64,000 nt of DNA from Cliona cf. orientalis. Taxonomy: Eukaryota > Porifera > Demospongiae > Clionaida > Clionaidae. The notes beneath the pieces are model-generated. The model did no database searches. It had not been told where the DNA came from and was given only the letters and a program-made list of their open reading frames with translations. The DNA is taken from assembly GCA_963930775.1 (NCBI GenBank), contig OZ005695.1, forward strand, positions 3,224,001 through 3,288,000. Reading direction: 5' to 3'. Shown here one piece after another: positions 33,630 to 64,000 of this stretch. A program made the translations under genes and the position numbers. Numbering within the stretch: the stretch's first letter is position 1; every line of letters begins with the position of its first letter.

Positions 33630-36600
33630 ATGGGTGCCATGAGAGGGCTAATGGTAATGTTAATAATAATAATATTATGTGCTCTCATCCGTTTGAATAG
33701 AAGCTATCACGGTCAGCAGCCTAAAATTCTTTGTGTTGTGTCGAAGAATGCCACGAGTGAAGATTGCTCAGCACTCATGCTAACCTTCAACTGCACTGTA
33801 TGCCAACTGTTGTCCGACTACATTCAGAATTCAAGTGAATATTTTACTAACAATATGATGTTGATCTTCACTGATGGAAGACATTGCCTACCGCCTCCTT
33901 CTGGCGGTGAAACTGTTATCAACATCACTGGAGTATCTAATTTCACAATGAAAGGACTGGGCAAAATTACATACAACCCATCAGAGGAAGGTGCTATACA
34001 TTCAAGCAGTGTAATAGCTTGCAGCTGTCATGGAGAAAAAAGAAGTGGGATACTATTTTACAAATCAAACTCTATCGTACTTGAGAATTTAACAATTGAG
34101 GACTGTGGAACAAAATTCGTTATTCAGAGGCCAGATAACTTCACTCTGGTGAGTGCGCTGACATTTCGTGAATCATATGATATCCAGATTGCTCAAATAC
34201 GCATGGATAGAAGCTTAGGATTTGGCCTGGATGCTGACAGAAACTATGGAGCTATGATCGTATCAAATTCAGCATTTTTGCGCAACAAACTGAGTCACTG
34301 TGACAATTATGCCATTCCACTTGGTGGAAATGTAAGATTTTGGTACTCCTTCTACAATATCTCAGCTACAGAAGCCGCTCACATCCATCATATCCGATTC
34401 AATACCACTCTGAGAATTGAACACTCGTGGTTTCTCTACGGCACAAAACAAGAAAAGGAAGAAGTTCCCAGTGCTGGTGGCTTGACAATTTTCATCTATC
34501 TTCCGAATACCACAATCATAATTGACCATATAAAGGCCATTAGTAATACTGGGAATGTGGCTATCAGGATCACAGATCAACCCAAGAATACTAGTGCAGT
34601 AATCATCAGGAACAGCATCATAGCTAATGGCTTGGCTGCGCGAGGTGGGGGGCTTCGATTCTGGATCAAACAAAACAAGAGGAAGTTCAAGGAATTCCAG
34701 GTAAAATCTCATGACATTATAAAACACAAGCTGGTGATCATACAGAACACGACATTTTCAAACAATTCAGCTTTGGAGAATGGTGGTGGTTTATACATCA
34801 GTCATTACGAGAGAGCCTTCCTTAACAATATCCATCGACTCATACATATTGATAGCTGCCAATTCATTGGCAATTATTTAAAGAGCTTAAGAAGAATTCG
34901 AAGTTACACTGGAGCGGCTGTGCAGATTGTCAACCACAAGATTACTTCTAGAACACCTCACATAACCCCTCAGTACTTCTTTAACTTTGTCAACTGCACC
35001 TATGCATACAACAAACTTAATGAGATTGCTAATGAAGGAGGGGTAATCAATTTTGCTTCAACGAGTGGAATTGCTATAAATGACAGCAACTTTACCTCCA
35101 ATGAAGGTACTGCTATTTCCTTACGCGATAGCAATGTAGAGTTTAGTGGCTACATTCTGTTTAAGAATAACATAGCAAGAAATGGCGGGGCTCTCAAGTT
35201 TTGCCAGTTCTCCAGCATGAATCTGCCATTGGGCCACGTGCTCATAGACTTTGTCAATAATTCGGCCACCTATACGGGTGGAGCTATCTATGTTGCCCAA
35301 GAGCAGTGTGTGGAAGCACTACCACCATGTTTCTTTCAGCCTGTGGTGCCCAAGACTGCCAAAATTAAACTAAGAGATCTAGATGTGAATATCACTTTAA
35401 GATTTTTCAATAATAGTGCAAAGTTGGCAGGAGATGCTATATATGGAGGGCAAGTGGATGCTTGCTATATGATATACAATTTCAAAATTTACAACAAACC
35501 TTATTTATCGCAAAAAATTTTCCAAAGATTAAGCTGTTTTGCAGGACAAATGAATACCACTCACTCTACGGTCGCCTCTAGTCCATACAGTGGCTGTTTT
35601 TGTAACACTTCACTGGGTGGCGCTCTAGACACTTTATCCTGTGATAACACAACCTATCCGAGGGCAGTGTTTCCTGGTCAAACCATTAGCATTGGAGTTG
35701 CTGCAGTTGGACAAAGAAATGGAACAGTCCCCATTGGCTCGGTCTATTTTAATTTCAGTTCAAGTAATCAAGACAACAATACTAGTCAGCTGGTTATCAA
35801 TAATGCACATGACAGTGAATACAGGGATAACAGTCACTGTGTACTTCTTAACTGTACCCTATACTCGGATAAGAAGAGTGCATTGTTCGCATTAAAAGTA
35901 CTGCAAGACAATCCAAGAAACTTGGACTTAAGGTATACCCACCATAAACTGCCTAGTAATTTAATGATACCAATTATCGGAGATTGTCCATGGGGATTTA
36001 AGCTTACTAAACATCCTCCGTACATGTGCGTCTGCGATGATTTGCTTATGCACTTTAGTATCTCATGTAATATTGATACACAGAGTCTGACTTTACCTGA
36101 AGGACATGTCTACTGGGTGGGCTGTGGACATCAGGACGAAAGTATTAATGCTAATTATACAGAAACAGACTGCAGAGGTTTAAGTTTGTCTGTCCATTGC
36201 TTGCTAGGCTACTGTAGAACTAACACTATGAACATTTCACCACAGACATTGCACCGCCAGTGCTCTGATGGCAGGGAAGGAATTCTCTGTGGTAGTTGTA
36301 AGCCAAATCATAGTCTTGCTTTAGGTACATCAAGATGTTTACCACATTGTCCTGGTTATCTTTTCTACATCCTCCTAGTAGTGTTTGCAGCTAGTGGAGT
36401 ACTGCTCATCCTCTTTCTCATTGCCTGTAACTTCACTGTCAGTGAAGGCACAGTTAATGGGCTGTTCTTTTATGCTCATGTGGTTCACAGAAACTCTGAT
36501 TCTTTCTTTCCAGCCCAAGCGGGAGTGTCCAATGCCAACATATTTCGTCTAATAATAGCATGGCTAAATCTAGATTTGGGCTTTGAAGTCTGCTTTTACA

Positions 36601-37589
36601 AATCAATGTCACAGTATCAAAAAATCTGGCTGGAGCTTGGCTTTCTTTTCTATGTATGGGGTTTGGAATTGCTTATCATTGTGTTGAGTCACAGGTATAT
36701 TTTCTTTACTAGACTATTCGGCAGAAATGTTGTTAAAGTCCTAGCAACCCTCTTTCTTGTTTGCTACGCAAAAACACTAAACATTGCCAGCACTACCCTG
36801 GAATTTGCCGTCATAAAGGACTCCGAGGGCAAAACTTTCAATGTTTGGTTGTTTGATGGCAATTTGGGATACTTTATGGGGAAACATATTCCCCTGTTTT
36901 TTGTTGGGACAATCCTTTGCTTGATTATAGCTGTATTCACAATGGTACTGCTCTTCATCCAGTGTCTCCAAAGGAGGTCAAACATTTACTGCTTGTGGTG
37001 GGTGGAGAGGCTGAGACCTTTCTTTGAGGCCTACACTGGTCCTTGCCGTGTTCACTGTCGTTTTTGGCCCGGATTTCTTTTCTTTGTTCGATTGATACTG
37101 TTCAGTTTCAGCTCTGTTCTGAGGGGCAAGCCAACTGCCGTCCTAGAGATAATAACAGCTGCTTGTTTTGTGGTGCTTGTGCTTGCATTTGTGTCACCGA
37201 ATGGTGTCTACAAGCGGTGGCCTCTGAACATCCTTGAATCTTCCTTCATTGTCAATCTTGGAGTTGTCTCTGGGGTAGTAGCTTTATTTTATCGCCCCAA
37301 ATTAGCTACGATATCTCAATTTGATCCTGCCTATTTTGTGTACCCTTCAGTGTCTGTATCCCTACTACTCTTCGCTGGAATCCTTTCTTTTCATTGTTTG
37401 AAACAAACCCTTGCCCGTAAGCATTTCCAGAAACTGTCCCAGTTGATTACCACAAGAAGAGTTCTACTCCGTACCCGCTATATTGAGAGGAGAGAGGAGG
37501 AAGAAATAGAGCCTTTGCTCAATCGACATAATATGCCTCAAATGGTTCAGTTCAACCACTTTCGTGAACCTCTTATTGAAGATGACTGA
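33630..37589 (+). CDS. Family gene A: beta-helix, multi-TM membrane protein (intact)
   Basis: This 1,319-residue single-exon protein has a signal peptide (about 1-25) and a Cys-rich head (about 35-65). Residues from about 150 to 610 form a right-handed parallel beta-helix with PbH1/Chlamydia Pmp-like coils (NNSALENGGGLYI, NNIARNGGALKF, NNSATYTGGAIYV). A Cys-rich neck (about 780-900, CSDGREGILCGSC) precedes about nine hydrophobic segments from residue 906 (CPGYLFYILLVVFAASG). The tail is cytosolic and acidic (REEEEIEPLLNR). Many NxS/T sites suggest a glycosylated outer part. Automatic annotators may call such proteins Pmp-like. No enzymatic motif is seen, and the function is unknown. It is the most diverged of the intact copies and has its own type of 5' flank. 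Confidence 0.9.
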   Translation: MGAMRGLMVMLIIIILCALIRLNRSYHGQQPKILCVVSKNATSEDCSALMLTFNCTVCQLLSDYIQNSSEYFTNNMMLIFTDGRHCLPPPSGGETVINITGVSNFTMKGLGKITYNPSEEGAIHSSSVIACSCHGEKRSGILFYKSNSIVLENLTIEDCGTKFVIQRPDNFTLVSALTFRESYDIQIAQIRMDRSLGFGLDADRNYGAMIVSNSAFLRNKLSHCDNYAIPLGGNVRFWYSFYNISATEAAHIHHIRFNTTLRIEHSWFLYGTKQEKEEVPSAGGLTIFIYLPNTTIIIDHIKAISNTGNVAIRITDQPKNTSAVIIRNSIIANGLAARGGGLRFWIKQNKRKFKEFQVKSHDIIKHKLVIIQNTTFSNNSALENGGGLYISHYERAFLNNIHRLIHIDSCQFIGNYLKSLRRIRSYTGAAVQIVNHKITSRTPHITPQYFFNFVNCTYAYNKLNEIANEGGVINFASTSGIAINDSNFTSNEGTAISLRDSNVEFSGYILFKNNIARNGGALKFCQFSSMNLPLGHVLIDFVNNSATYTGGAIYVAQEQCVEALPPCFFQPVVPKTAKIKLRDLDVNITLRFFNNSAKLAGDAIYGGQVDACYMIYNFKIYNKPYLSQKIFQRLSCFAGQMNTTHSTVASSPYSGCFCNTSLGGALDTLSCDNTTYPRAVFPGQTISIGVAAVGQRNGTVPIGSVYFNFSSSNQDNNTSQLVINNAHDSEYRDNSHCVLLNCTLYSDKKSALFALKVLQDNPRNLDLRYTHHKLPSNLMIPIIGDCPWGFKLTKHPPYMCVCDDLLMHFSISCNIDTQSLTLPEGHVYWVGCGHQDESINANYTETDCRGLSLSVHCLLGYCRTNTMNISPQTLHRQCSDGREGILCGSCKPNHSLALGTSRCLPHCPGYLFYILLVVFAASGVLLILFLIACNFTVSEGTVNGLFFYAHVVHRNSDSFFPAQAGVSNANIFRLIIAWLNLDLGFEVCFYKSMSQYQKIWLELGFLFYVWGLELLIIVLSHRYIFFTRLFGRNVVKVLATLFLVCYAKTLNIASTTLEFAVIKDSEGKTFNVWLFDGNLGYFMGKHIPLFFVGTILCLIIAVFTMVLLFIQCLQRRSNIYCLWWVERLRPFFEAYTGPCRVHCRFWPGFLFFVRLILFSFSSVLRGKPTAVLEIITAACFVVLVLAFVSPNGVYKRWPLNILESSFIVNLGVVSGVVALFYRPKLATISQFDPAYFVYPSVSVSLLLFAGILSFHCLKQTLARKHFQKLSQLITTRRVLLRTRYIERREEEEIEPLLNRHNMPQMVQFNHFREPLIEDD

Positions 37590-40342: not shown

Positions 40343-43300
40343 ATGGCAAAAAAATTACTGATCAGTTTAACTGTAATGAAAATCATTGTCATAATAATAT
40401 TATACACCACTCGTTTGAGCAGCTGCCAGCCTAAAATTGAAACTCTGTGTGTAAATGCTGCGGATGACCCCACTGGATGTTCTGCACTCACCCAGAGGTT
40501 TAATTGCTCTGCTTGTCAACCACTATCCCTCTATGTCCAGAATGCAAGCGAGTATTTGACTAGCAATGTAGAAATGGTGTTCACGAAGGGAAGCCACTGC
40601 CTACCCCCACCTCCTCATGGTGCACCGGAGTTGGCAGTTGTCAATTTGACTGGAGTATCCAACTTCACAATGAAAGGATTGGGTAGAATTTCTTACAACT
40701 CATCAGAAGAAGGAGCCGTACAGCCAAGCAGTGTAATAACATGCAGCTGCAGTCAAAACAAGAGTGGGATACTTTTTTACAAGTCAAACGCAATTTATAT
40801 TGAGAATTTAACAATTGAAGATTGTGGAGCGAAAGTTGTGTTTGTAAATCTCCACATCTTCACTACCGAGAGTGCACTTTTGTTTTTTGATTCGTATGAT
40901 ATTGAACTCATAAGATTACGTATGAACAGAAACTTAGAGTACGGAATGTTTGCTGAACAAGTATCTGGAAACTTTACTATCTCAAACTCGGCTTTTTTGA
41001 GGTGTTTAGCAGTCCCAATAAGCAAAACTACTAATATATGTTCAAATGCACATATATCATATAGAAACTATAATCATAGGAAAACTAGCTTACTGATCGA
41101 ACACTCTTGGTTCCTGTACAATGGTGGACACAAGTCTAAACGGGCTAGTGGCTTGTCAATATTACTCAATCGTACCGAAGTTAGTGTGCACATTGATTAC
41201 ATAAAGGCAATGTACAACGTTGGTGGTAATGTAGGGATTAATGTTCAGGATTATACCAGTTCTGTTACCATCAATAATAGCATTATTGCACACGGGCCAG
41301 CGGTACAGGGTGGCGGAATAGCTATTCGAGTAGAAGCCTGGAAAGATTGCAATAATTGTTCAGTGCACTATGTAAATGCCACTGTTGTGGCAATATTTAA
41401 TACCAGCTTTGTGAACAATTCAGCAAGTAGTAGAGGAGGTGGTGTGTTGATTGATCAGCATGAGGAAAATATCATCAACACCGTTCAACAGCATGTATCT
41501 TTTGTGGAGTGCCAGTTCATTGGAAATTCAATAACATACAGCGATAAAAATGTAGGAGACGGAGCCGCTGTGCACATTTTAAAGCGTGATATGCCAGTAA
41601 TAAAGCTGCACACTAATCCTATGTTTTCATTTTCGTTCACAAATTGCACTTTTATTAATAACAAGCTTGATTCTGAGTCTAAAGAAGGTGGGATAGTTAC
41701 CTTCATTTCAACAAACAGCATCATCATAGAAGATAGTAACTTCACCTCCAATGAGGGCACAGCCATCTTTCTTCAAAATAGTAACGTGCAATTCAAAGGA
41801 AGCATCACATTTGTGAACAATTCAGCTCAGAATGGAGGAGCTCTGAAGTTTTGCCAATCTTCAAAGATGTACTTACCGACTGATAACGTACGCATAAACT
41901 TCATCAATAACTCAGCCACTTCCACGGGTGGAGCTATTGATGTCAAAGACGATTGTACAGAAAGAATCCCAACATGCTTTTTTCAACCAGCATATCAGAA
42001 AAAAGTGAAATTTTCAGATTTAAATGTAACACTTATATTTGTTAATAACAAAGCAAAATTGGCAGGAGATGCAGTGTACGGAGGTCAGATTGATGGTTGC
42101 TATACATTAACATACAGGTTTTCAGCCAAACAACCTAAGTATGGTTCATGGAAATTATTTGATACGATTGCTAATCTGACTCAACAAAGTAACATTTCTC
42201 GGTCAACAATATCATCTTCTCCATATGGTGCCTGCTTTTGTAATACTATAAATTCGGAAGACTATAATGCTATAGATGGTTTAAATTGTAGCAATATGTC
42301 TTATCCGAGGGAAGTGATTCCTGGTCAGACTATTAGCATTGGTACTGCTGCAATTGGACAAGGAAATGGAACAGTTCCAATCAGCTCAGTATACTTTGAA
42401 TTTACTAATTTCCAGAATTCAAATGACATCACCACCCAGCTCGTAGTTAACAACACGTTTGAAGCCAATCATCCACGTACACGACGTTGCAATATCCTAA
42501 ACTGTGTGGTATATTCAAACGAGACTAGAGCAGTCTTCAAACTAACCATACAACAAATAAGCACAACAGAGATAAAAAATGCCCACTATGAACCGCCCCA
42601 CCTAACTGTTTTAATGAAAGAATGCCCATGGGGATTTACCCTCAGCAACAGCCCTCCTTACAAATGTGATTGCGATAGTCTACTCGAAAGCTTTAGCATC
42701 CCTTGCACTATTGATACACAAACAGTTACTATACCTGGCAGACACTATTACTGGCTAGGATGTAGTAAATCAAATGGTAGCAACTGTAGAGGTTTAAGTT
42801 TAGCGGATAATTGCTTACTAGGCTACTGCAGACCTGAAACTGCCACCATCAAACCAGAGACATTGGACCACCAGTGCTCTGATGGTTGGGAAGGAGTTCT
42901 CTGTGGTCGTTGTAAGTCGAATCATAGCCTTGCTTTAGGTACATCAAGATGTTTACCAGATTGCCCTGGTTATCTTTTCTACATCCTCCTAGTAGTGTTT
43001 GCAGCTAGTGGAGTACTGCTCATCCTCTTTCTCATTGCCTGTAACTTCACTGTCAGTGAAGGCACAATCAATGGGCTGTTGTTTTATGCTCATGTGGTTC
43101 ATAGAAATTCTAATTCCTTCTTTCCAGGTTCAACAGGAAATTCAAACATCTTTCGTTTATTTATAGCCTGGCTAAATTTAGATGTAGGTTTTGAAATCTG
43201 TTTTTATAGATCGATGACCCAATATGACAAAGCCTGGATCCAGTGTGGATTTCTCTTCTATTTATGCATTTTAGAGTTGGCCATTATTATTCTGAGTCGT

Positions 43301-44179
43301 AAGTACATCTTCTTCACAAGACTCTTTGGTCGAAATGTAGTGAAGGTTCTTGCCACACTTTTTCTACTCTGTTGTGCCAAAATGATGGACATTGGTATCA
43401 GCACTCTGGAATTCGCTCGCATCAAGCATTCTGACAGTCCAGACACTATTGTGTGGTTGTTTGATGGTAACATTAGTTACTATACTGGGAGACACATCTT
43501 TTTGTTTATTCTTGGCTTGATATTTTGTTCTTTCTCAATTGTGTACTGCATGACTCTACTCTTCATCCAGTGTCTCCAAAGGAGGTCAAATATCTGTTGC
43601 TTGCGTTGGGTTGACAGGTGGAGGCCATTCTTTGAGGCGTATACAAGTCCTTGTCACGTGAACTATCGCTTCTGGCCTGGTTATCTTTTCTTCACTCGAT
43701 TGATTTTGTGCACATTTGGTTCAGTTTTAAGGATTAAACCCAACATCAACCTTCATATCGCTACTGCTGCTTGTGTTGTAATTCTGATATTTGCCTTTGT
43801 ATCTCCAACCGGTGTCTACAAGCATTGGCCTCTGAATATTCTAGAATTTTCTTTTCTTATCAATTTGGGCATCTTGTCTACTTTAGTGGCAACTTTCTGT
43901 CACTCCTCAGGATCCCATGCTTCATCTTTTGTGTATCCTTCAATAGCTATAGCAATACTTCTCTTTGTTTGCATTGTCCTGTACCACTGTGTGAAGAGGC
44001 TCATGTCCTATAATCGATTTCAAAGGTTCATACAGTCTGTTACTGCAAAATTCCATGGCTTGAGAAATGGTTGGAAAGAAGTTGAGAATGAAGAAGAGGC
44101 AGAGCCTTTCCTGAACCAACAGATGCCTCAGGTGCACAATTTCTCTCGCTATCGTGAGACACTTCTTGGAGATAATTAA
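40343..44179 (+). CDS. Family gene B: beta-helix, multi-TM membrane protein (intact)
   Basis: This 1,278-residue single-exon protein has a signal peptide (about 1-29) and a head with paired cysteines (about 35-60, FNCSACQPLS). Beta-helix coils span about 165-585 (NNSASSRGGGVLI, NSNVQFKGSITFVNNSAQNGG, NNSATSTGGAIDV). The Cys-rich neck spans about 754-872. Roughly nine membrane segments run from 873 to 1217, and a 60-residue acidic tail ends NFSRYRETLLGDN. It shares its 5' flank closely with F and its 3' half and 3' flank closely with D, so it is a mosaic or a recent duplicate of both. A surface receptor or channel-like role is only a guess. Confidence 0.9.
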   Translation: MAKKLLISLTVMKIIVIIILYTTRLSSCQPKIETLCVNAADDPTGCSALTQRFNCSACQPLSLYVQNASEYLTSNVEMVFTKGSHCLPPPPHGAPELAVVNLTGVSNFTMKGLGRISYNSSEEGAVQPSSVITCSCSQNKSGILFYKSNAIYIENLTIEDCGAKVVFVNLHIFTTESALLFFDSYDIELIRLRMNRNLEYGMFAEQVSGNFTISNSAFLRCLAVPISKTTNICSNAHISYRNYNHRKTSLLIEHSWFLYNGGHKSKRASGLSILLNRTEVSVHIDYIKAMYNVGGNVGINVQDYTSSVTINNSIIAHGPAVQGGGIAIRVEAWKDCNNCSVHYVNATVVAIFNTSFVNNSASSRGGGVLIDQHEENIINTVQQHVSFVECQFIGNSITYSDKNVGDGAAVHILKRDMPVIKLHTNPMFSFSFTNCTFINNKLDSESKEGGIVTFISTNSIIIEDSNFTSNEGTAIFLQNSNVQFKGSITFVNNSAQNGGALKFCQSSKMYLPTDNVRINFINNSATSTGGAIDVKDDCTERIPTCFFQPAYQKKVKFSDLNVTLIFVNNKAKLAGDAVYGGQIDGCYTLTYRFSAKQPKYGSWKLFDTIANLTQQSNISRSTISSSPYGACFCNTINSEDYNAIDGLNCSNMSYPREVIPGQTISIGTAAIGQGNGTVPISSVYFEFTNFQNSNDITTQLVVNNTFEANHPRTRRCNILNCVVYSNETRAVFKLTIQQISTTEIKNAHYEPPHLTVLMKECPWGFTLSNSPPYKCDCDSLLESFSIPCTIDTQTVTIPGRHYYWLGCSKSNGSNCRGLSLADNCLLGYCRPETATIKPETLDHQCSDGWEGVLCGRCKSNHSLALGTSRCLPDCPGYLFYILLVVFAASGVLLILFLIACNFTVSEGTINGLLFYAHVVHRNSNSFFPGSTGNSNIFRLFIAWLNLDVGFEICFYRSMTQYDKAWIQCGFLFYLCILELAIIILSRKYIFFTRLFGRNVVKVLATLFLLCCAKMMDIGISTLEFARIKHSDSPDTIVWLFDGNISYYTGRHIFLFILGLIFCSFSIVYCMTLLFIQCLQRRSNICCLRWVDRWRPFFEAYTSPCHVNYRFWPGYLFFTRLILCTFGSVLRIKPNINLHIATAACVVILIFAFVSPTGVYKHWPLNILEFSFLINLGILSTLVATFCHSSGSHASSFVYPSIAIAILLFVCIVLYHCVKRLMSYNRFQRFIQSVTAKFHGLRNGWKEVENEEEAEPFLNQQMPQVHNFSRYRETLLGDN

Positions 44180-44833
44180 AGTTTTGTACATAGCTGAAGA
44201 CTCACAAATGATAATAATTATTATTATAAAATTGACTTTTACACAACTGGATAGCTTCTCATGATCATAAATTTTATATTCAGACATAGCTATTTCCTAC
44301 CAATAATTATTGTACACTATCTTCATGTGTCTAACTTATACTTAAACAGTATATACATGATGTAAAAGAGTGTGATTATACACCAAACTGTGATGGGAGA
44401 ATGAAATTAAGGGAAGCTAGCAACAGTGCCCTAGTGACTACTTGGAGTCAATGAATTACTCATACCTGCTTAATAATAATAAAAGTCTGCATGGTCATCA
44501 AATGCATGTTGCAGCATACTACCGTATTAGATGAAATGGGGGTTGCAGAGACCCACTGAATTTGCATCCAGAATATTGGCTGCATACTGTGGTACTTAAA
44601 CTAGCACAGACAGCAAAAGTTCAATATAAATTGAAACACAAACTACCATAATAATATTATGCTCAGTATATAGGCTACATCAAATTGAAAATATATCCTG
44701 CCGCAAAGGTATACCCGCAGCGGTATTTCCACTGAGTAAACTAGCCAGCTACAGCTTGTCATAATAATATAATACTATTATAGTTGCTGCCTCAGGTATA
44801 TTATATTCTATTCCGTTGCCCTGCTATACACAA
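44180..44833. other. Spacer B-C
   Basis: Nearly identical to the spacer after D (50604-51160) as far as the upstream module. Nothing coding is seen. Confidence 0.6.
44704..44763. repeat. Upstream module core, copy 3 (before C)
   Basis: The core AAAGGTATACCCGCAGCGG...CCACTGAGTAAACTAGCCAG lies about 70 bp before the truncated gene piece C. It is normally hundreds of bp upstream, so the promoter-proximal part and most of the gene are deleted. Confidence 0.75.
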
Positions 44834-45493
44834 TAGTACTACTCTTTATCCAGTGTCTCCAAAGGAGGTCAAATATCTGTTGCTTGCCGCGGTTGGGTTG
44901 ATAGGTGGAGACCATTCTTTGAGGCATATACAAGTCCTTGTTACGTGAACTATTGCTTCTGGCCCGGTTTTCTCTTCTTTATTCGACTGACCTTATTCAC
45001 ATTTGCCACTCAGTTTTAAGAACTAAGCCCACCATCAACCTTCATATCGCTACTGCTGCTTGTGTTGTGATACTGATATTTGCCTTTGTATCTCCAACCG
45101 GTGTCTACAAGCGTTGGCCTATGAATGTTTTAGAATTCACCTTTTTTATCAATTTGGGCATCTTATCTACTTTAGTGGCAACATTATGTCACTCGTGCAT
45201 ACTCTTCAGGACCTCATGCTTCATCTTTTGTGATTCCTTCAGTGGCTATAGCAATGTTCCTCTTTGCTTGTATTGTCCTGTACCACTGTGTGAAGAGACT
45301 CATGTCTTATATATATAATCGCTTTCAAAGGATCATGCAGTCGATTACTGCAAGAAAGGCAAACCTTCGTGGCTTGAAATGGTTTCAGGTTTGGAAAGAA
45401 GTTGAGGATGAAGAAGAGGCAGAGCCTTTCCTGAACGAACAGATACCTCACAATTTCTCTTGCTATTGTGAGACACTTCTTGGAGATAATTAA
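44834..45493 (+). pseudogene. Family copy C: 3' fragment
   Basis: Only the last quarter of a B/E-type gene remains, from the LFIQCLQRRSN segment to the tail ending ETLLGDN. Two insertions break the frame (GCCGCGGTT in place of GCGTT near 44885; extra bases near 45005). The fragment starts abruptly after an upstream module, so about 3 kb of coding sequence has been deleted. It ends like E (long tail with KANLRGLKWFQVWKEVEDEEE). Confidence 0.85.
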
Positions 45494-46667: not shown

Positions 46668-49600
46668 ACGGCAAGAAGACTACTGATCAATCTAGCTGTA
46701 ATGGAAATAGTTACCATAATATTATTGGTTTTATACGCCACTCACTTGAGCAGCTGCCAGCCTAAGATTGAGACTCTGTGTGTAAATGCTGTGGACGACC
46801 CCACTGAATGCTCTACACTCACCCAGAGGTTTAACTGCTCTGCATGTCAACCATTATCCTTCTATGTCCAGAACGCAAGCAAATATTTGACTAGCAATGT
46901 AGAAATGGTGTTCACGAAGGGAAGCCACTGCTTACCTCCACCTCCTCATGGTGCACCCGTTGTCAATTTGACTGGAGTATCTAACTTCAAAATGAAAGGA
47001 TTGGGTAGAATTTCTTACAACTAATCAGAAGAAGGAGCCGTACAGCCAAGCAGTGTAATAACATGCAGCTGCAGTCAAAACAAGAGTGGAATACTTTTTT
47101 ACAATTCAAACGCAATTTATATTGAGAATTTAACAATTGAAGATTGTGGAACAAAAGTAAATCTCCACATCTTCACTACCGGGAGTGCACTTTTGTTTTT
47201 TTATTCATATGATATTGAACTCATAAGATTACGTATGAACAGAAACTTAGAGTATGGAATGTTCGCTGAACGAATATCTGGAAACTTTACTATCTCAAAC
47301 TCTGCTTTTTTGAGGTGTTTAGCAGTCCGAATAAGAAAAACGACTAACATATGTTCAAATGTACATATATTATATAGAAACTATAATCATAGGAGAACTA
47401 GCTTACTGATCGAACACTCTTGGTTCCTCTATGGTGGACACAAGTCTAAAAGAGCTGGTGGCTTGTTAATATTCCTCAATCGTACCGAAGTTAGTGTGCA
47501 CATTAATTACATAAAGGCAATGTACAACGTTGGTGGTAATGTAGCGATTAATGTTCAGGATTATACCAGCTCTGTTACCATCAATAATAGCATTATTGCA
47601 CATGGGTCAAGAAAACAGGGTGGCGGAATAGCTATTAAAGTAGAAGCCTGGAAAAATTACAATAATTGTTTAGTGCACTATGCCAATGTTACTGTTGTGG
47701 TAATATTTAATACCAGCTTCGTGAACAATGCAGCGAAACAGGGTGGCGGAATAGCTATTCAAGTAGAAGCCTGGAAAAATTACAATAATTGTTCAGTGCA
47801 ATATACCAATGTTACTGTTGTGGCAATATTTAATACCAGCTTTGTGAACAATTCAGCAAGTAGTAGAGGAGGAGGTGTGTTGATTGATCAGCATGAGGAC
47901 AATATGATCAACACCATTCAACAGCATGTATCTTTTGTGGAGTGCCAGTTCATTGGAAATTCAATAACATACAGCGATAAAAATGTAGGAGACGGAGCCG
48001 CTGTGCATGTTTTAAAGCGTGATGTATCGGTAATAAAGCTGCACACTAATCCCCTCTTTTCATTTTCATTCACAAATTGCACTTTTATTAATAACAAGCT
48101 TGATTCTGAGTCTAAAGAAGGTGGGATAGTTACCTTCATTTCAACAAACAGCATCATCATAGAAGATAGCAACTTCACCTCCAATGAGGGCACAGCGGTC
48201 TTTCTTCAAAATAGCAACGTGCAATTTAAAGGGAGCATCACATTTGTGAACAATTCAGCTCAGAATGGAGGAGCTCTGAAGTTTTGCCAATCTTCAAAGA
48301 TGTACTTACCTACTGATAACGTACGCATAATCTTCATCAGCAACTCAGCCACTTCCACGGGTGGAGCTATTGACGTTAAAGACGACTGTACAGAAAGAAT
48401 CCCAACATGCTTCTTTCAACCAGCATATCAGAAAAAAGTGAAATTTTCAGATTTAAATGCAACACTTGTATTTATTAACAACAAAGCAAAATTGGCAGGA
48501 GATGCAGTGTATGGAGGTCAGATTGATGGTTGCTATACATTAACATACAGGTTAAAACCTAACTATGGTTCATGGAAAGTATTTGATATGATTGCTAATC
48601 TGACTCAACAAAATAACATTTCTCTGTCAACAATATCATCTTCTCCATATGGTGCCTGCTTTTGTAATACTACAAATTTGGAAGATTACAATGCTATAGA
48701 CGGTTTAAATTGTAGCAATATGTCTTATCCGAGGGAAGTGATTCCTGGTCAGACTATTAGCATTGGTGCTGCTGCAATTGGACAAAGAAATGGAACAGTT
48801 CCAATCAGCTCAGTATACTTTGAATTTACTAATTTTCAGAATTCAAATAATATCACCACCCAGCTCATAGTTAACAACACATTCGAAGCCAATCGTCCAC
48901 GCACACGGCGTTGCAATATCCTGAACTGTGTGGTATATTCAAACGAGACTAGAGTAGTCTTCAAACTAACCATACAGCAAATAAGCACAACAGAGATAAA
49001 AAATGCCCACTATGAACCGCCCCACCTAACTGTTTTGATGAAAGAATGCCCATGGGGATTTACCCTCAGTAACAGCCCTCCTTACAAATGTGAATGCAAT
49101 GGTCTACTCAAAAGCTTTAGCATCCCCTGCACTATTGATACACAAACAGTTACTATACCTGGCAGACACTATTACTGGTTAGGCTGTAGTAAATCAAATG
49201 GTAGCAACTGTAGAGGTTTAAGTTTAGCAGACAATTGCTTACTAGGCTACTGTAGACCTGAAACTACCACCGTCAAACCAGAGACTTTGGACCACCAGTG
49301 CTCTGATGGCAGGGAAGGAATCCTCTGCGGTCGTTGTAAGTCGAATCATAGCCTTGCTTTAGGTACATCAAGATGTTTACCAAATTGTCCTGGTTATCTT
49401 TTCTACATCCTCCTAGTAGTGTTTGCAGCTAGTGGAGTACTGCTCATCCTCTTTCTCATTGCCTGTAACTTCACTGTAAGTGAAGGCACAATCAATGGGC
49501 TGTTCTTTTATGCTCATGTGGTTCACAGAAATTCTAATTCCTTCTTTCCAGGCTCAACAGGAAATTCAAATGTCTTTCGTTTATTTATAGCTTGGCTAAA

Positions 49601-50603: not shown

Positions 50604-51303
50604 AGTTTTGTACATAGCTAAAGACTCACAAATGATAATAATTATTATTATAAGCTTGACTTTTACACAACTGGATAGCTTCTCATGATCATAAATTTTA
50701 TATTCAGACATAGCTATTTCCTACCAATAATTATTGTACACTATCTTCATGTGTCTAACTTACACTTAAACAGTATATACATGATGTAAAAGAGTGTGAT
50801 TATACACCAAACTGTGACGGGAGAATGAAATTAAGGGAAGCTAGTAATAGTGCCCTAGTGGCTACTTGGAGTCAATGAATTACTCATACCTGATTAATAA
50901 TAATAAAAGTCTGCATGGTCATCAAATGCATGTTGCAGCATACTACCGTATTAGATGAAATGGGGGTTGCAGAGACCCACTGAATTTGCATCCAGAGTAT
51001 TGGCTGCATATACTACGAATTGAAACACAAACTACCATAATAATATGCTCAGTATATAGATAGCTACATCAAGTTGAAAATATATCCTGCCGCAAAGGTA
51101 TACCCGCAGCGGTATTTCCACTGAGTAAATTATAGCGGCCAGCTGCAGCTTATCATAATAATAATTATTATACATAACTGCCAACACTGTTATAATTTTA
51201 AACACCTGAGCTACCTTTAATAGCTAAGTTCAGAACATTCACTTGTGAATGGTTATCCCATTGAGTATAGGCTGCTTCGCTGGCCAGGGGCGGAGTGGTG
51301 AGA
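50604..51303. other. Spacer after D
   Basis: The first 550 bp match the B 3' spacer almost base for base. The last 130 bp match the sequence before the A-like fragment at 57312. Nothing coding is seen. Confidence 0.6.
51094..51155. repeat. Upstream module core, copy 5
   Basis: AAAGGTATACCCGCAGCGG...CCACTGAGTAAATTATAG...CCAGCTGCAGCTT lies before the A-like fragment at 51304. Confidence 0.75.
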
Positions 51304-51843
51304 CGGCGGAGCTCTCAAGTTTTGGCAGTTCTCCAGCATGAATCTGCCACTGAACCATGTACTCATAGACTTTATTAATAATTCGGCCACCTATATAGGT
51401 ATACGGCAGGTGGAGCTATCTATGTTGCCCAGGAGCAGTGTATGCCATGGAAGCACTACCACCATGTTTCTTTCAGCCAGTAGTGCCCAAGACTGCCAAA
51501 ATTAAACCAAGTGATGTGAATGTCACTTTAAGATTAGTGCAAAGCTGGGAAGAGATGCTATATATGGTGAGCAAATGAATGCTTGCTGTATGATAATATA
51601 CAATTTCAAAATTTACAACAATTTCAATGATTATCGCAAAATATATATATTATCCAAAGATTAAGCTGTTTTGCAGGACAAATGAATAGCACTCACTCTA
51701 CGGTCGCCTCTAGTCCATACAGTGGCTGTTTTTATAACACTTCACTGGGTGGCGCTCTAGTCACTTTATCCTGTGATAAAATGACCTATCCGAGGGCTGC
51801 ATGCATTGTGTTTCCTGGTCAAACCATAAGCATTGGAGTTGCT
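51304..51843 (+). pseudogene. A-like fragment A' (beta-helix end and neck start)
   Basis: Matches gene A from the GGALKF coil (35190) to the SIGVA segment (35700), about 540 bp, with several small indels and a missing FNNS segment. It ends where a tRNA-bearing element follows. No long frame survives. Confidence 0.85.
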
Positions 51844-51869
51844 TTCTGATGTAATGGGCACCAAGAACC

Positions 51870-53008: not shown

Positions 53009-56000
53009 ATGGCAAGATTTAGTCTACTGATCAGTCTAACTGTAACGGAAATCGTTGCCATATTATTGGTTTTGTACGCTACTCCATCGAACAGCTACCA
53101 GCCTAAGATTGAGACTTTGTGTGTAAATGCTGTGGATGCACCCACTGGATGCTCTGCACTCACCCAGAGGTTTAACTGCTCTGCATGTCAACCATTATCC
53201 TTCTATGTCCAGAGTGCAAGCAAGTATTTGACTAGCAATGTAGAAATGGTGTTCACGAAGGGAAGCCACTGCTTACCCCCATCTCCTCATGGTGCACCAG
53301 TTGTCAATTTGACTAGAGTATCTAACTTCAAAATGAAAGGATTGGGTAGAATTTCTTACAACTCATCAGAAGAAGGAGCCATACAGCCAAGCAGTGTAAT
53401 AACATGCAGCTGCAGTCAAAACAAGAGTGCAATACTTTTTTACAGGTCAAATACCATCCACATTGAGAACTTGACCATTGAAGAGTGTGGAAGAAAGGTT
53501 AAACTTACAAATTCAGCAAAGGGAAAATTCATCACAGTCAGTGCACTCATGTTTTATCAGTCATATGATATTGAACTCTTAAGAATCCGTATGAATAGGA
53601 ACTTAGAATTTGGACTATTCGCTGAACAAGTATATGGCAAATTTATCATATCAAATTCTGCTTTTTTGAGATGTGTGGTACAACCAATAAACAAAAAGGT
53701 CAATCTTGGTTCGAATGCATACATATATTACAAAAACTATCGTCATGAGCAAACTAGTCTCTTGATAGAATACTCTTGGTTCTTATATGGTGGAAACCAC
53801 TCGGATAGAGCTGGTGGTTTGTCAATTTTTTTTGTCCGTCCCAAAGTCAGTGTCCTGATCAGTCACATAAAGGCAATGCATAACATAGGTGGAAATTTAG
53901 CTATTCATTTCAGTGATTACCATGAGAACACCAGTTCAGTTACCATCAACAATAGCATAATAGCGCATGGATCAGCAAAACAGGGTGGTGGATTGAATAT
54001 CCGTGTTGAAGCAACACAACTGTGGCAACATGGAATTGTGAATACTAGACCGAGTACTAGCCTCAGTGTTTTGGCAGTTATGAATACTACATTTGAGAAC
54101 AATTCAGCAAGTGATAGAGGTGGTGGTGTGTTCATTATTCAGTATGAGAGGAGTATTACTGACATCATTCGACGAAATATATCATTCAAAGGGTGCCAGT
54201 TCATTGGTAATTCAATAATACCTGATCGCTCATTGGGAGATGGAGCTGCAGTGCATATTTATAAGCGTGCAATACCTGATATAGCACTCCACATAAATCC
54301 TTTATTTTCATTTATATTCACAAATTGCACATTTGAATACAACCAGCTCAACCGTGAATCTAAAGAAGGTGGGATAGTCACTTTTATTTTGACAAACAGC
54401 ATCATCATAGAAGACAGCAACTTCACTTCCAATGAGGGCACAGCCATCTTCCTTCATAATAGCAATATGCAATTCAGAGGGAAAATTTTATTTGAGAACA
54501 ATTCAGCTCTTCACGGTGGAGCACTGAGCCTTTGCCAGTCTTCAAAGATGTACTTACCTGTAGGAAATATTCACATAGACTTCATAAATAACTCAGCCAC
54601 ATCCACAGGTGGAGCTATTAACATAAGAGAACAATGTACAGAGATAATCCCTCCATGTTTCTTTCAACCAGGGTACCAAAAACATGTAAAATTTTCAGAG
54701 TTGAATGCGACTCTCCTATTTAAAGATAATGTGGCTAAATTGGCCGGTGATGTTCTATATGGAGGCCAGATTGATAGATGTTTTATGGTAACAAATGATT
54801 ACAATTCCATATTTAAAAACATTATGCATCATTCAACGAAAGCGTTCAACATTATTTTCAACCTGGCACAGCAAAACAACATTACTCAGTCTACTATATC
54901 ATCTTCTCCATTTGGTGCCTGCTTTTGTAACACTTCTGGATCAGATGATTTTATACACACTTTAAATTGTAGCAACATGACCTATGCTAAGCCGGTGATT
55001 CCTGGTCAGACTATTATCATTGGAGTTGCTGCAGTTGGACAAAGAAATGGAACTGTTCCCATGAGTTCTGTATACTTTGAATTCGGTAACATCAAGTATA
55101 GAAGTGAAAACACTACACAGCTTGTGATTAACAACACCTTACAAGTCAATCGGCCACGTACTCGCTGCAACTTCTTGAATTGCATACTGTATTCAAATCG
55201 AAAGAGGGCTGTTTTCGAATTGATCCTTCAACAGGCAACCCCAATAGAGATAAGTTATGTCAACTATGAATCATCCTACCTAACCATTTTCATCAAAGAA
55301 TGCCCATGGGGATTTACCCTCAGCAACAGCCCTCCTTACAAATGTGAATGTGATGGTCTACTCAAAAACTTTAGCATCCCTTGCACTATTGATACACAAA
55401 CAGTTACTATACCTGGCGGACACTATTACTGGTTAGGCTGTAGTAAATCAAATGGTAGCAACTGTAGAGGTTTAAGTTTAGCAGACAATTGCTTACTAGG
55501 CTACTGCAGACCTGAAACTACCACCATCAAACCAGAGACATTGGACCACCAGTGCTCTGACGGCAGGGAAGGAGTTCTCTGTGGTCGTTGTAAGTCGAAT
55601 CATAGCCTTGCTTTAGGTACATCAAGATGTTTACCAAATTGCCCTGGTTATCTTTTCTACATCCTCCTAATAGTGTTTGCAGCTAGTGGAGTACTGCTCA
55701 TCCTTTTTCTCATTACCTGTAACTTCACTGTCAGTGAAGGCACAATCAACGGGTTGTTCTTTTATGCTCATGTGGTTCACAGAAATTCTAATTCTTTCTT
55801 TCCAGGCTCAACAGGAAATTCAAATGTCTTTCGTTTATTTATAGCCTGGCTAAATTTAGATGTAGGTTTTGAAATCTGTTTTTATAGATCAATGACCCAA
55901 TATGACAAAGCCTGGATCCAGTGCGGATTTCTCTTCTATTTATGCATTTTAGAGTTGGCCATTATTATTCTGAGTCGTAAGTACATCTTCTTCACAAGAC

Positions 56001-56866
56001 TCTTTGGTCGAAATGTAGTGAAGGTTCTAGCTACACTTTTTCTACTCTGTTCTGCCAAAATGATGGACATTGGTATCGGTACTCTGGAATTCGCTCGCAT
56101 CAAACATTCCGACAGTCCAGACACTATTGTGTGGTTGTTTGATGGTAACATTAGATACTATACTGGGAAACACATCTTTTTGTTTATTCTTGGCTTGTTA
56201 TTTTGTTCTTTCTCAATTGTGTACTGTATGACTCTACTTTTCATCCAGTGTCTCCAAAGGAGGTCAAATATCTGTTGCTTGTGTTGGGTTGACAGGTGGA
56301 GGCCATTCTTTGAAGCGTATACAAGTCCTTGTCACGTGAACTATCGCTTCTGGCCTGGTTTTCTTTTTTTTACTCGATTGATTTTATCCACATTTGGTTC
56401 AGTTTTAAGAACTAAGCCCACCATCAACCTTCATATCGCTACTGCTGCTTGTGTTGTGATACTGATATTTGCCTTTGTATCTCCAACCGGTGTCTACAAG
56501 CGTTGGCCTCTGAATGTTCTAGAATTCTCGTTTTTTATTAATTTGGGTATCTTGTCTACTTTGGTGGCAACATTTTGTCACTCCTCAGGACCCCATGCTT
56601 CATCTTTTGTGATTCCTTCAGTAGCTATAGCAATGTTTCTCTTTGCTTGCATTGTCCTGTACCACTGTATGAAGAGGCTCATGTCCTATAATCGCTTTCA
56701 AAGGTTCATACAGTCAGTTGCTGCAAGAAAGGAAAACCTTCGTGGCTTGAAATGGTTTCAGGTTTGGAAAGAAGTTGAGAATGAAGAAGAGGCAGAGCCT
56801 TTCCTGAATGAACAGATACCTCACAATTTCTCTCGCTATCGTGAAACACTTCTTGGAGATACATAG
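53009..56866 (+). CDS. Family gene E: beta-helix, multi-TM membrane protein (intact)
   Basis: This 1,285-residue single-exon protein has the plan of B: signal peptide, Cys-rich head, beta-helix coils (about 165-590), Cys-rich neck (about 757-875), about nine membrane segments (876-1220) and an acidic tail with an extra KENLRGLKWFQVWKEV segment shared with C. The ectodomain differs from B at many positions and has its own insertions (for example YHENTSSVTI and the ATQLWQHG coil). From the neck onward (about 55300) it is almost identical to B and D at the DNA level. The start lies in the shared context AAGATCATGGCA. The ligand and function are unknown. Confidence 0.9.
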   Translation: MARFSLLISLTVTEIVAILLVLYATPSNSYQPKIETLCVNAVDAPTGCSALTQRFNCSACQPLSFYVQSASKYLTSNVEMVFTKGSHCLPPSPHGAPVVNLTRVSNFKMKGLGRISYNSSEEGAIQPSSVITCSCSQNKSAILFYRSNTIHIENLTIEECGRKVKLTNSAKGKFITVSALMFYQSYDIELLRIRMNRNLEFGLFAEQVYGKFIISNSAFLRCVVQPINKKVNLGSNAYIYYKNYRHEQTSLLIEYSWFLYGGNHSDRAGGLSIFFVRPKVSVLISHIKAMHNIGGNLAIHFSDYHENTSSVTINNSIIAHGSAKQGGGLNIRVEATQLWQHGIVNTRPSTSLSVLAVMNTTFENNSASDRGGGVFIIQYERSITDIIRRNISFKGCQFIGNSIIPDRSLGDGAAVHIYKRAIPDIALHINPLFSFIFTNCTFEYNQLNRESKEGGIVTFILTNSIIIEDSNFTSNEGTAIFLHNSNMQFRGKILFENNSALHGGALSLCQSSKMYLPVGNIHIDFINNSATSTGGAINIREQCTEIIPPCFFQPGYQKHVKFSELNATLLFKDNVAKLAGDVLYGGQIDRCFMVTNDYNSIFKNIMHHSTKAFNIIFNLAQQNNITQSTISSSPFGACFCNTSGSDDFIHTLNCSNMTYAKPVIPGQTIIIGVAAVGQRNGTVPMSSVYFEFGNIKYRSENTTQLVINNTLQVNRPRTRCNFLNCILYSNRKRAVFELILQQATPIEISYVNYESSYLTIFIKECPWGFTLSNSPPYKCECDGLLKNFSIPCTIDTQTVTIPGGHYYWLGCSKSNGSNCRGLSLADNCLLGYCRPETTTIKPETLDHQCSDGREGVLCGRCKSNHSLALGTSRCLPNCPGYLFYILLIVFAASGVLLILFLITCNFTVSEGTINGLFFYAHVVHRNSNSFFPGSTGNSNVFRLFIAWLNLDVGFEICFYRSMTQYDKAWIQCGFLFYLCILELAIIILSRKYIFFTRLFGRNVVKVLATLFLLCSAKMMDIGIGTLEFARIKHSDSPDTIVWLFDGNIRYYTGKHIFLFILGLLFCSFSIVYCMTLLFIQCLQRRSNICCLCWVDRWRPFFEAYTSPCHVNYRFWPGFLFFTRLILSTFGSVLRTKPTINLHIATAACVVILIFAFVSPTGVYKRWPLNVLEFSFFINLGILSTLVATFCHSSGPHASSFVIPSVAIAMFLFACIVLYHCMKRLMSYNRFQRFIQSVAARKENLRGLKWFQVWKEVENEEEAEPFLNEQIPHNFSRYRETLLGDT

Positions 56867-57311
56867 TTAAAGTTTGTTACAGCTCAAGAATTACATAATC
56901 ACATAATAATAATATACACACACTCTCATTCATTTACACTATACTTACAATAGTAATAACTTACTGATAGTCTGTATTACTTGAATATTGACTAGTACAC
57001 TAACTCTGATATACTATTAATTTATATTTGTATGTATTCTGTAAGTATTTTGCATTAATTTTGTCCAATTGCAAGTTATTAAAAAGTAATAAGAACATGC
57101 ATTATTATGCACTATTCACTAAAATGTATGATCGTACATATAATATATTATACATAACTGCCAGAACTGTTATAACTTTAAACACCTGAGCTACCTTTGA
57201 TAGCTAAGTTCAGAACAGTTACATTCACTTGTGAATGGTTATCGCATGCACTGTCCAGGCAAAGGTATTGAGTAGGCTGCTTCACTGGCCAGGGGCGGAG
57301 GGTTGAGACGG
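56867..57311. other. Spacer between E and fragment A''
   Basis: AT-rich. The last 165 bp repeat the sequence in front of fragment A' (51173-51303). No gene is seen. Confidence 0.6.
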
Positions 57312-59745
57312 CGGAGCTCTCAAGTTTTGCCAGTTCTCCAGCATGAATTTGCCACTGAACCACGTGCTCATAGACTTTCTTAATAATTCGGCCACCTATA
57401 TAGCTATACGGGTGGAGCTATCTATGTTGCTCAACAGCAGTGTGTGGAAGCACTTCCACCATGTTTCTTTCAGCCTGTGGTGCCCAAGACTGCCAAAATT
57501 AAACCTAGAGATGTGAATATCACTTTAAGATGTTTCAATAATAGTGCAAAGTTGGCAGGAGATGCTATATATGGAGGGTAAGTGGATGCCTGCTATATGA
57601 TATACAATTTTGGAATTTATGGCAAACCACTAAGTTATTTATCGCAACTAGTATTAATTTTTTCCAAAAATTATTCAATTTTGCAGGACAAATGAATAGC
57701 ACTCACTCTACAGTTGCCTCTAGTCCATACAATGGCTGTTTTTGTAACACTTCACTGGGTGGTGCTCTGGACACTTTATCCTGTGATAACACAACCTATC
57801 CAAGGGCAGTGTTTCCTGATCAAACCATTAGCATTGGAGTTGCTGCAGTTGGACAAAGAAATGGAACAGTTCCCATTGGCTCGGTTTATTTTAATTTCAG
57901 TTCAAATAATCGAGACGATAATACTAGTCAGCTTATTATCAATAATGCATATAACAGCGAATACAGGGATAACAGTCACTGTGTACTTCTTAACTGTACC
58001 CTATCCTCGGATAAGAAGAGTGCACTATTTACATTAAAATTATTGCAAGTCAATCCAAGAAACTTGGACTTAAGATATACCCACCATAAACTGCCTAGTA
58101 ATTTAATGATACCAATTATCAGAGATTGTCCCTGGGGATTTAGGCTTACTAAGCATCCTCCGTACATGTGCGTCTGTGATGATTTGCTTATGCACTTTAG
58201 TATCTCGTGTAATATTGATACACAGAGTCTGACTTTACCTGAAGGACATGTCTACTGGCTGGGATGTGGACATCAGGATGAAAGTGTTAATGCTAATTAT
58301 ACAGAAACAGACTGCAGAAGTTTAAGTTTGTCTATCCATTGCTTGCTAGGCTACTGTAAAACTAACACTATGAACATTTCACCACAGACTTTGGACCACC
58401 AGTGCTCTGATGGCAGGGAAGGAGTTCTCTGAGGTCATTGTAAGCCAAATCATAGTCTTGCTTTAGGTACATCAAGATATTTACCACATTGCCCTGCTTA
58501 TCTTTTCTAGCTACATCCTCCTAGTAGTGTTTGCAGCTAGTGGAGTACTGCTCATCCTCTTTCTCATTGCCTGTAACTTCACTGTTAGTGAAGGTATACA
58601 ATCAACGGGCTGTTCTTTTATTCTCATGTGATTCACAGAAACTCTGATTCTTTCTTTCCAGCCCAAGCGGGAGCGTCCAATGCCAACATATTTTGTCTAA
58701 TAATAGCGTGGCTAAATCTAGATTTGGGCTTTGAAGTCTGCTTTTACAAATCAATGACTCAGTATCAAAAAACCTGGCTGGAGCTTGGCTTTCTTTTCTA
58801 CGTATGGGGTTTGGAATTGCTTATCATTGTGTTGAGTCGCAGGTATATTTTCTTTACTAGGCTATTTGGCAGAAATGTTGTTAAAGTCCTAGCAACCTTC
58901 TTTCTTGTTTGCTACGCAAAAACACTAAACATTGCCAGCACTATCCTGGAATTTGTCATCATAAAGGGCTCCGAGGGCAAAACTTTCAATGTTTGGTTGT
59001 TTGATGGCAATTTGGGATACTTTATGGGGAAACATATTCCCCTGTTTTTTGTTGGGATAATCCTTTGCTTGATTATAGCTGTATTCACAATGGTACTGCT
59101 CTTCATCCAGTGTCTCCAAAGGAGGCTAGGTCAATAATCTACTGCTTGCAGTGGGTGGAGAGGCTGAGACCTTTCTTTGAGGCCTACACTGGTCCTTGCC
59201 ATGTTCACTCTTGTTTTTGGCCCGAATTTCTTTTCTTTGTTCGATTGATACTGTTCAGTTTCAGCTCTGTTCTGAGAGGCAAGCCAACTGCCATCCTAGA
59301 GATAATAACAGCAGCTTATTTTGTGGTGCTTGTGCTTGCATTTGTGTCACCGAATGGTGTCTACAAGCGGTGGCCTCTGAATATCCTTGAATCTTCCGTC
59401 ATTGTCAATCTTAATTAGAGTTGTCTCTGGGGTAGTAGCTTTATTTTATCGCCCCAAATTAGCTACGATATCTCAATTCAATCCTGCCTATTTCGTGTAC
59501 CCTTCAGTGTCTGTATCTTTACTACTCTTTGCTGGAATCCTTTCTTTTCATTGTTTGAAACAAACCCTTGCCCGTAAGCATTTCCAGAAACTGTCCCAGT
59601 TGATTACCACAAGAAGAGTTCTACTCCGTACCCGCTATATTGAGAGGAGAGAGGAGGAAGAAATAGAACCTTTGCTCAATCGATGTAATATGCCTCAAAT
59701 GGTTCAGTTCAGCCACTTTCGGAACCTCTTATTGAAGACGACTGA
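57312..59745 (+). pseudogene. A-like pseudogene A'' (C-terminal two-thirds)
   Basis: Begins at the same breakpoint as A' and continues to the A-type stop. Defects relative to A include a TAA in the GGQVDACY segment (about 57581), deletion before the MNSTHSTVASS segment, TGT to TGA at 58430-58432 (LCGSC neck motif), an AGCT insertion near 58509, scrambled bases near 59127 and a one-base deletion near 59719. Open pieces of 246, 169 and 152 codons remain. It lacks signal peptide, head and most of the helix. Confidence 0.88.
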
Positions 59746-60235: not shown

Positions 60236-60264
60236 TCTTCACAAAAATAATATTAATTCATTGT

Positions 60265-62330: not shown

Positions 62331-62698
62331 GTGTTGCTGTTTCAGGTACTTTTATTTACTTGGAAGCCGACACTGGTGCACAAATAAACTCACAAGTCCT
62401 TAAATATATACACTGAGGTTGATCCTTCAGCTTGTATAAGTGTCACTGAGTCACGTGTATGTACACAAGTGGGACACGGCTTAAATTAGAATCACACCTT
62501 ATGATGTACATACAGAAATTCCCAACTTATCACTCTGTAGCTGATTACAAAAGCATTGCACACAGTTATCATATCGCTCGCTAATGATTTGGAGGATGCT
62601 GCCATAACACCATTTCAAGTTGTGCATGCTAAATTTTATTTAAGAGTGAAGTAAAAGCAAAATCTACTATAATTACAACCTACAGGGAAAGCTAGATC

Positions 62699-64000
62699 AT
62701 GGCAAAACAACTACTGAACAGTTTAACTGTAATGAAAATCATTGTGATAATATTATTGGTTTTGTACGCCACTCACTTGAGCAGCTGCCAGCCTGAGATT
62801 GAGACTCTGTGTGTAAATGCTGTGGATGATCCCACTGAATGTTCTGCACTCAACCGGATGTTTAACTGCTCTGCATGTCAACCACTATCCTTCTATGTCC
62901 AGAGTGCAAGCAAGTATTTGACTAGCAATGTAGAAATGGTGTTTACGAAGGGAAGCCACTGCTTACCCCCACCTCCTCATGGTGCACCAGTTGTCAATCT
63001 GACTGGAGTATCTAACTTCATAATGAAAGGATTGGGTAGAATTTCTTACAACTCATCAGAAGAAGGAGCCGTACAGCCAAGCAGTGTAATAACATGCAGC
63101 TGCGGTCAAAACAAGAGTGGGATACTTTTTTACAAGTCAAATGCAATTCGCATTGAAAATTTAACAATTGAAGATTGTGGAGCGAAAGTTGTGTTCGTAA
63201 ATCCATACATAGTACACACCAAAACCTTCACTACCATGAGTGCACTTCTATTTTTTTATTCTTACGATATTGAACTCATAAGGTTACGTATGAACAGAAA
63301 CTTAGAGTATGGAATGTTTGCTGAACAAATATCTGGAAAATTTACTATCTCACATTCTGCTTTCTTGAGGTGTGTGACAGTCTCATTAAGCAAAACCGCT
63401 AAGTCAAACATAGGTTCAAATGTATGGATATTGTACAGAAACAATAATGATAGGAGAACTAGCTTGCTGATCGAACACTCTTGGTTCCTCTATAATGGTG
63501 GAAATAAGTCTAAAAGGGCTAGTGGCTTGTCAATATTCATCAGCCGTCCCGAAGTTAGTGTGCGAATTGATTACATAAAGGCAATGTACAACGTTGGTGG
63601 TAATGTAGCGATTAACGTTGAGGATTATACCAGCTCTGTTACCATCAATAATAGCATTATTGCACATGGGTCAGCGCAACAGGGTGGCAGAATAGCTATT
63701 CGAATAGAAGCCTGGAGAAATTACAGTAATTGTTCAGTGCACTATGCCAATGTTACTGTTGTTGCAATATTTAATACCAGCTTTGTGAACAATTCAGCAA
63801 GTAGTAGAGGAGGAGGTGTGTTGATTGATCAGCACGAGGATAATATTATTGTCAACACCGTTCAACAGCATGTATCTTTAAATTTGTGGAGTGCCAATTC
63901 ATTGGAAATTCAATAACATACAGCGATAGTAATGTAGGAGACGGAGCCGCTGTACATGTTTTTAAGCGTGATATACCAGTAATAAAGCTGCACACTATTC
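62699..64000 (+). pseudogene. Family copy F: frameshifted, cut by window edge
   Basis: F starts like B (MAKQLLNSLTVMKI) and matches it through the signal peptide, head and first half of the helix. Near 63879-63884 five extra bases (TCTTTAAATTTGTGG against TCTTTTGTGG in B) shift the frame and a stop follows at 63914-63916. The B-like reading continues in another frame (FVECQFIGNSITYSD) to the window end. Either the copy is dead or this is an assembly error. The 5' flank is the closest relative of that of B. Confidence 0.8.

Follow-up and report, generated by a model that had tools for sequence, protein, structure and literature searches.

Right-handed β-helices and multi-helix membrane parts are both known from cell-surface proteins of very different origin. 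The chlamydial Pmp proteins (PF02415) are built from β-helix coils with a short repeat signature, and among animal membrane proteins fibrocystin/PKHD1 and CEMIP2/TMEM2 have a β-helix ectodomain and one membrane helix. TRP-like/Flc proteins (PF06011) place about nine membrane helices behind a Cys-rich ectodomain, and families shaped by tandem birth and death, gene conversion and many broken copies include the odorant receptors, the SRCR and NLR proteins of sponges and several protist surface families. Here we describe a tandem gene array of the coral-boring sponge Cliona cf. orientalis whose products combine such features, in a stretch of 64,000 nucleotides (the window; contig C7, OZ005695.1, positions 3,224,001-3,288,000; all smaller coordinates are counted from the first base of this stretch).

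The three open genes of the array (A, B and E) share a hydrophobic N-terminus, a Cys-rich N-terminal part, a β-helix, a neck with the motif CxDGxEGxLCGxC and about nine hydrophobic segments. Their coils bear the same short repeat signature as Pmp (A scored 22.8 bits against a Chlam_PMP cut-off of 20.6, E was also above it and B below), but these are animal nuclear genes with a nine-helix membrane module in place of a matched autotransporter barrel. In contrast to fibrocystin and CEMIP2, the sponge proteins had no G8 domain match (19 full-length members, E-value ≤0.01), have about nine helices, and are encoded by intronless genes in hundreds of copies. Unlike the expanded receptor repertoires named above, they carry a β-helix head on a membrane module without an assigned family.

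Gene A (33630-37589, 1319 amino acids [aa]), gene B (40343-44179, 1278 aa) and gene E (53009-56866, 1285 aa) are open single-exon frames with pairwise identities of 52-76% over nearly their full length. With A, B and E as tblastn queries, we located five extra copies or pieces: b2, a broken fragment of membrane part and tail with stops in its frames (44800-45490); C, a full-length copy (about 46671-50603) whose sole break is an in-frame stop at 47022-47024; D, a broken fragment of an A-like head (51302-51843); F, a frameshifted A-like copy (57282-59743); and H, of which the 5' part lies in the window (62699-64000, with a frameshift near 63880) and which runs on to about contig position 3,290,560. 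All eight copies lie on the plus strand, and the three intact single-exon genes and at least five broken copies on one strand of a preliminary description, made from the letters of this DNA, were thus recovered, although the copy C counted there as broken is whole save for its one stop. Of the other features listed in that description, the Cys-rich head, the neck motif and the roughly nine membrane segments were present in all three open genes; what it called a signal peptide is a hydrophobic N-terminus, a putative signal peptide. The array extends beyond the window to about 3,326 kilobases (kb) on the contig and there includes the rest of H, a tail fragment, the frameshifted copy I, copy J (internal part missing, frames broken) and the open copy K (1333 aa). 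The β-helix DNA of C is 95% identical to that of B, and because the identity between B and C (93.5%) and between A and F (92.7% over 2594 columns) continues into the 3' flank, the units of duplication were longer than the coding part.

The array in the window is a small piece of a genome-wide superfamily. For a census we made five protein searches of the animal's own genome (216.8 megabases [Mb], 19 chromosomes) with diverse queries (E, L061, L062, L064 and L063); each scored 75-86 of 1483-1863 first-look candidates, so that all locus counts are lower bounds. The first four queries together gave at least 268 distinct loci, present on every one of the 19 chromosomes; the open frame (a six-frame value, start codon not required) reached 1150 aa or more at 183 of them and was shorter at 85. 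At 198 loci a neighbour lay within 60 kb, and 16 clusters of four or more loci were spread over nine chromosomes. The L063 query, which runs from the last part of the head through the neck to the first membrane helix and no further, contributed 84 loci without overlap to those 268, and 69 of the 84 had frames of 1150 aa or more, for a total of at least 352 loci, 252 of them with frames of that length. A second branch (L002-L005, L007 and L008, on C10, C1, C7 and C6, with L003 and L004 being one gene) had frames of up to 2098 aa and longer heads, made of many similar coils of about 24 residues each, so that head length varies by gain of coils. Of the eight Beta_helix loci fetched, six were matched by the family profile and two, L001 and L006, were not. 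The second branch carries the same membrane module, as does a third (L064). Two loci on C1 (C1:5843669 and C1:5852958), about 9.3 kb apart, scored identically in one search and formed matching pairs in another, which very recent tandem duplication or a haplotype artefact would explain.

A fold search with a model of the head listed right-handed β-helix proteins, ladders of parallel coils, most of them polysaccharide lyases, epimerases, glycosidases and tailspikes; the modelled fold thus agrees with the β-helix ectodomain first proposed from the letters. In Pfam, 19 full-length members (a set that leaves out the broken copies L044, L045, L049 and L050) matched Chlam_PMP in seven cases, DUF7630 in the neck in seven, Beta_helix in three and PAR1 in one at an E-value of ≤0.01; the PAR1 match was taken as chance. 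For the membrane part, the C-terminal halves of the same 19 members were searched against Pfam at an E-value of ≤1. Fifteen Pfam families were matched in total, none of them a credible family for this part, and NCBIfam and profile searches of the PDB agreed, in line with the earlier description of a family without an assigned function. The Cys neck was matched by DUF7630 (PF24633; 15/19 halves, best E-value 1.6e-5), with a match spanning only about 30 residues; genome-wide, 32 places scored above its cut-off, and 21 of these coincide with listed family loci. E scored 16.9 bits, under the 27-bit cut-off. Other weak matches (OppC_N in 4/19, PAR1 in 2/19) were taken as chance.

Among the matches of these 19 halves there was none to the TRP-like family PF06011, the PKD channel family PF08016, a 7tm family or an autotransporter β-barrel; nine segments fit better than seven, and the hydropathy is helical instead of barrel-like. 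None of the six PKD_channel matches in the genome fell at one of the 352 listed loci; the closest lay about 5.9 kb away from where a member match starts. A PKD relationship was accordingly rejected at the level of sequence, and the TRP/Flc or PKD kinship considered in the preliminary description found no support, the comparison with TRP-like/Flc proteins being one of sequence across the 19 members. The PDB profile search returned a single insignificant match (E-value 2.6), the PDB sequence search, NCBIfam and PADLOC gave only chance matches or none, and no relatives were found in the viral and prokaryote collections searched. Among open-access texts, no publication on this family was found by title or abstract opening, though one may exist elsewhere.

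Family-average hydropathy resolved eight clear hydrophobic segments and one weak segment; the reading that fits best is a membrane part of nine helices followed by a cytosolic tail. Hydropathy and charge suggest that the N-terminus lies outside and the C-terminus inside the cell, consistent with the multi-helix membrane part described earlier. The tail usually carries an acidic dileucine-type motif. An acidic run is indeed present in the tail, which had been described as acidic, but the tails counted in A, B and E were slightly net positive. Conserved charged residues occur in the membrane module, and three of them, D951, R1123 and E1172 (numbering of E), lie in predicted helices. In the β-helix, by contrast, 34 columns were conserved in at least 18 of the 19 members and not one of them (0/34) was D, E, K, R or H, leading us to reject catalysis by the helix. 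Conservation in the helix falls mainly on Gly, Asn, Ser, Ala and aromatics, which are typical of coil packing.

The mosaic copies in the array are new here. The helix and linker of E (53429-55300) belong to a J-like lineage that differs from B and C, whereas its neck and membrane part (55301-56683) have recently been shared with B, C and H. Between B and E, synonymous differences numbered 163/289 in the helix (proportion of synonymous differences, pS, 0.56) and 38/307 in the neck and membrane part (pS 0.12; p 4e-31), with 10/72 in the N-terminal part. In the linker DNA, E had an identity of 0.96 with J and of 0.72-0.74 with B, C, H and I; in the membrane part the values were 0.88 with J and 0.94-0.97 with B, C, H and I, or 0.95-0.97 when B, C and H are taken by themselves. 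The two head blocks kept by J matched E at 94.6% and 92.6% in blastn, versus 81.7% and 71.3% for B; an identity of 0.67 between the helices of E and J was discounted as a product of the part missing from J. Because head and linker are J-like while neck and membrane part are like those of B, C, H and I, E combines two lineages, a J-type head joined to a B/H-type neck and membrane part.

A second case concerns a short neck tract of A (residues 876-945, 36255-36464) that is homogenised with B, C and E; its counterpart in B lies at 42869-43078, with the offset taken from repeat family D1. Within these 70 codons A and B had 5/51 synonymous differences, versus 149/210 in the remaining membrane part (p 5e-16), and the pS of A against B, C and E was 0.10-0.16 across the 210 bases as opposed to about 0.70 across the rest of the membrane part. 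Synonymous constraint was ruled out as the cause, since A and K are saturated in this tract (pS 0.72), and we concluded that the tract was exchanged. Overall, the head lineages B/C/H/I and E/J have stayed separate while the necks and membrane parts of B, C, E, H and I were homogenised, a pattern that fits movement of heads or conversion of membrane parts alike. In the cluster at 2.2-2.43 Mb, helix pS exceeded membrane pS in 6/6 pairs of one subgroup and 10/21 of another. The nearest neighbours by helix and by membrane part were discordant in places, with good support only for C (100% and 98%); L046 and L052 paired at 100% in the membrane part and had different helix partners (support 75% and 44%), and the remaining discordances were weak. 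Frameshift counts from the region-wise DNA alignment were set aside as artefacts, open genes A and K showing them too.

The reading that we favour, with a probability of about 0.45 on sequence and model evidence, is a repertoire of recognition receptors, probably endocytic, diversified by duplication and by exchange bounded at the neck. A right-handed β-helix would stand outside the cell on a disulphide-rich neck, and a conserved nine-helix module would span the membrane and end in a cytosolic tail, usually with a sorting motif of the acidic dileucine type. The helix, presumably non-enzymatic, would bind repetitive ligands such as glycans or particles from food, from microbes or from the dinoflagellate symbiont; the membrane module may signal or drive uptake. 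New heads would arise by tandem duplication, by gain of coils and when copies exchange head and membrane modules at borders close to the neck, and many copies would decay. This picture fits best because the family is large, clustered, partly decayed and intronless, its helix appears non-enzymatic, its membrane module is strongly conserved and its tail is of sorting type. Several observations nevertheless weigh against it. The membrane module could be a channel or a transporter, and its AlphaFold2 model failed (predicted local distance difference test 36.5, too poor for a fold search). The tail motif is missing in B, E and L042 (all with FL instead of LL), in L060 and in L059, the last of which is truncated at its end.

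Selection on the heads also argues against this reading. Mean pairwise identity is lower in the helix (0.40) than in the membrane part (0.49), in partial support of the variable head of the preliminary description, but the helix is under purifying selection. Its ratio of nonsynonymous to synonymous substitution rates (dN/dS) was 0.15-0.37 in the 12 pairs, out of 13, that gave a finite dS (the 0.15 for A and E rests on a saturated dS of 2.99). The highest ratios lay outside the helix, at up to 0.80 in the neck, 0.78 in the N-terminal part, 0.77 in the linker, 0.73 in the tail and 0.61 in the membrane part, and each came from one or two pairs. In a seven-gene group helix pS exceeded membrane pS in 10/21 pairs, and the ratio of the nonsynonymous to the synonymous proportion (pN/pS) was higher for the helix in 2/21 and for the membrane part in 19/21. 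Positive selection on heads as a general rule was therefore rejected.

The main rival is a family of sensor channels in which the nine-helix module is TRP/Flc-like or a new ion channel, with the β-helix as its tether or gate in sensing touch or dissolved cues; such a family would be a sponge counterpart of the chemosensory receptor families. That the membrane module is the most conserved part and keeps charged residues within predicted helices, that a Cys-rich ectodomain with about nine helices recalls Flc/TRP-like proteins, and that hundreds of intronless, clustered and partly decayed genes resemble chemoreceptor families all speak for it; the missing matches of the 19 members to PF06011, PF08016 and 7TM families, the position of the PKD_channel matches away from the listed family loci and the single insignificant match of the PDB profile search do not, and we hold it to be possible but clearly the less probable of the two. 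Allorecognition or homophilic adhesion, with heads binding like heads on adjoining cells and exchanged heads marking individuals, would account for head lineages that stay apart above homogenised necks and membrane parts. It is unlikely, however, given loci dispersed over all 19 chromosomes and no general diversifying selection in dN/dS or pN/pS.

The fold neighbours of the head would suit a lyase, epimerase or glycosidase acting on surface polysaccharides, but with no charged residue among the 34 conserved helix columns, and with conserved residues of the coil-packing type, we consider an enzyme highly improbable. About as little credence, or slightly less, goes to inflation of the family by the assembly, that is, haplotype copies laid in tandem and mostly decaying, with no functional repertoire. 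High heterozygosity is indicated by the figures given in PMC12639293 (k-mer completeness of the primary assembly 60.5%, 81 haplotypic duplications removed), and the identically scoring pair on C1 and the 85 of 268 loci with frames under 1150 aa point the same way. Against it, the array copies differ in DNA by 1-55%, an amount that varies with the copy and the region and is uneven along the gene, the window contains no N, clusters of four or more loci number 16 on nine chromosomes, and 252 of the 352 loci keep frames of at least 1150 aa.

If the receptor repertoire is real, a bolder version of it can be entertained, though we think it rather doubtful: a class of sponge receptors whose membrane module is new and whose at least 352 mostly open, intronless loci might form one of the largest recognition repertoires that this sponge has, telling food, microbes and intracellular dinoflagellates apart and diversifying by module exchange at the neck border. 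Recognition of symbionts, food and other sponges by animals with neither a nervous system nor adaptive immunity is poorly understood. The surface-protein superfamily described here, for whose membrane module the libraries searched contain no curated family, occupies at least 352 loci in a genome with 25,502 annotated protein-coding genes (PMC12639293), and the mosaics bounded at the neck provide a concrete mechanism for new combinations of head and effector. Cliona cf. orientalis hosts intracellular Symbiodiniaceae (PMC12639293), so that a recognition repertoire would make symbiont recognition directly testable; a channel family would instead mean a new sensory system at the base of the animals.

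Upstream of the array, on the minus strand, lies a TRAF-like gene with RING-like, zf-TRAF and MATH matches in Pfam (30621-31955; the RING-like match below cut-off). The preliminary description had noted it as an adaptor gene next to the array, a position that proved uninformative: the genome has at least 150 listed zf-TRAF matches (504 first-look candidates), many of them clustered, and among the matches listed only one of the 16 family clusters has one within 50 kb. Linkage was therefore rejected as functional or signalling evidence, and the neighbour looks coincidental. Elsewhere in the window, a single-exon gene at 23329-24459 encodes a 376 aa protein, by eye a seven-helix membrane protein, with no Pfam match above cut-off. 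A sugar transporter, partial in one frame, lies at 26123-27187 (Sugar_tr 4.9e-59, profile from position 125), and the minus strand at 28125-28736 encodes a domain of OHCU decarboxylase (6.4e-38), an enzyme of urate breakdown.
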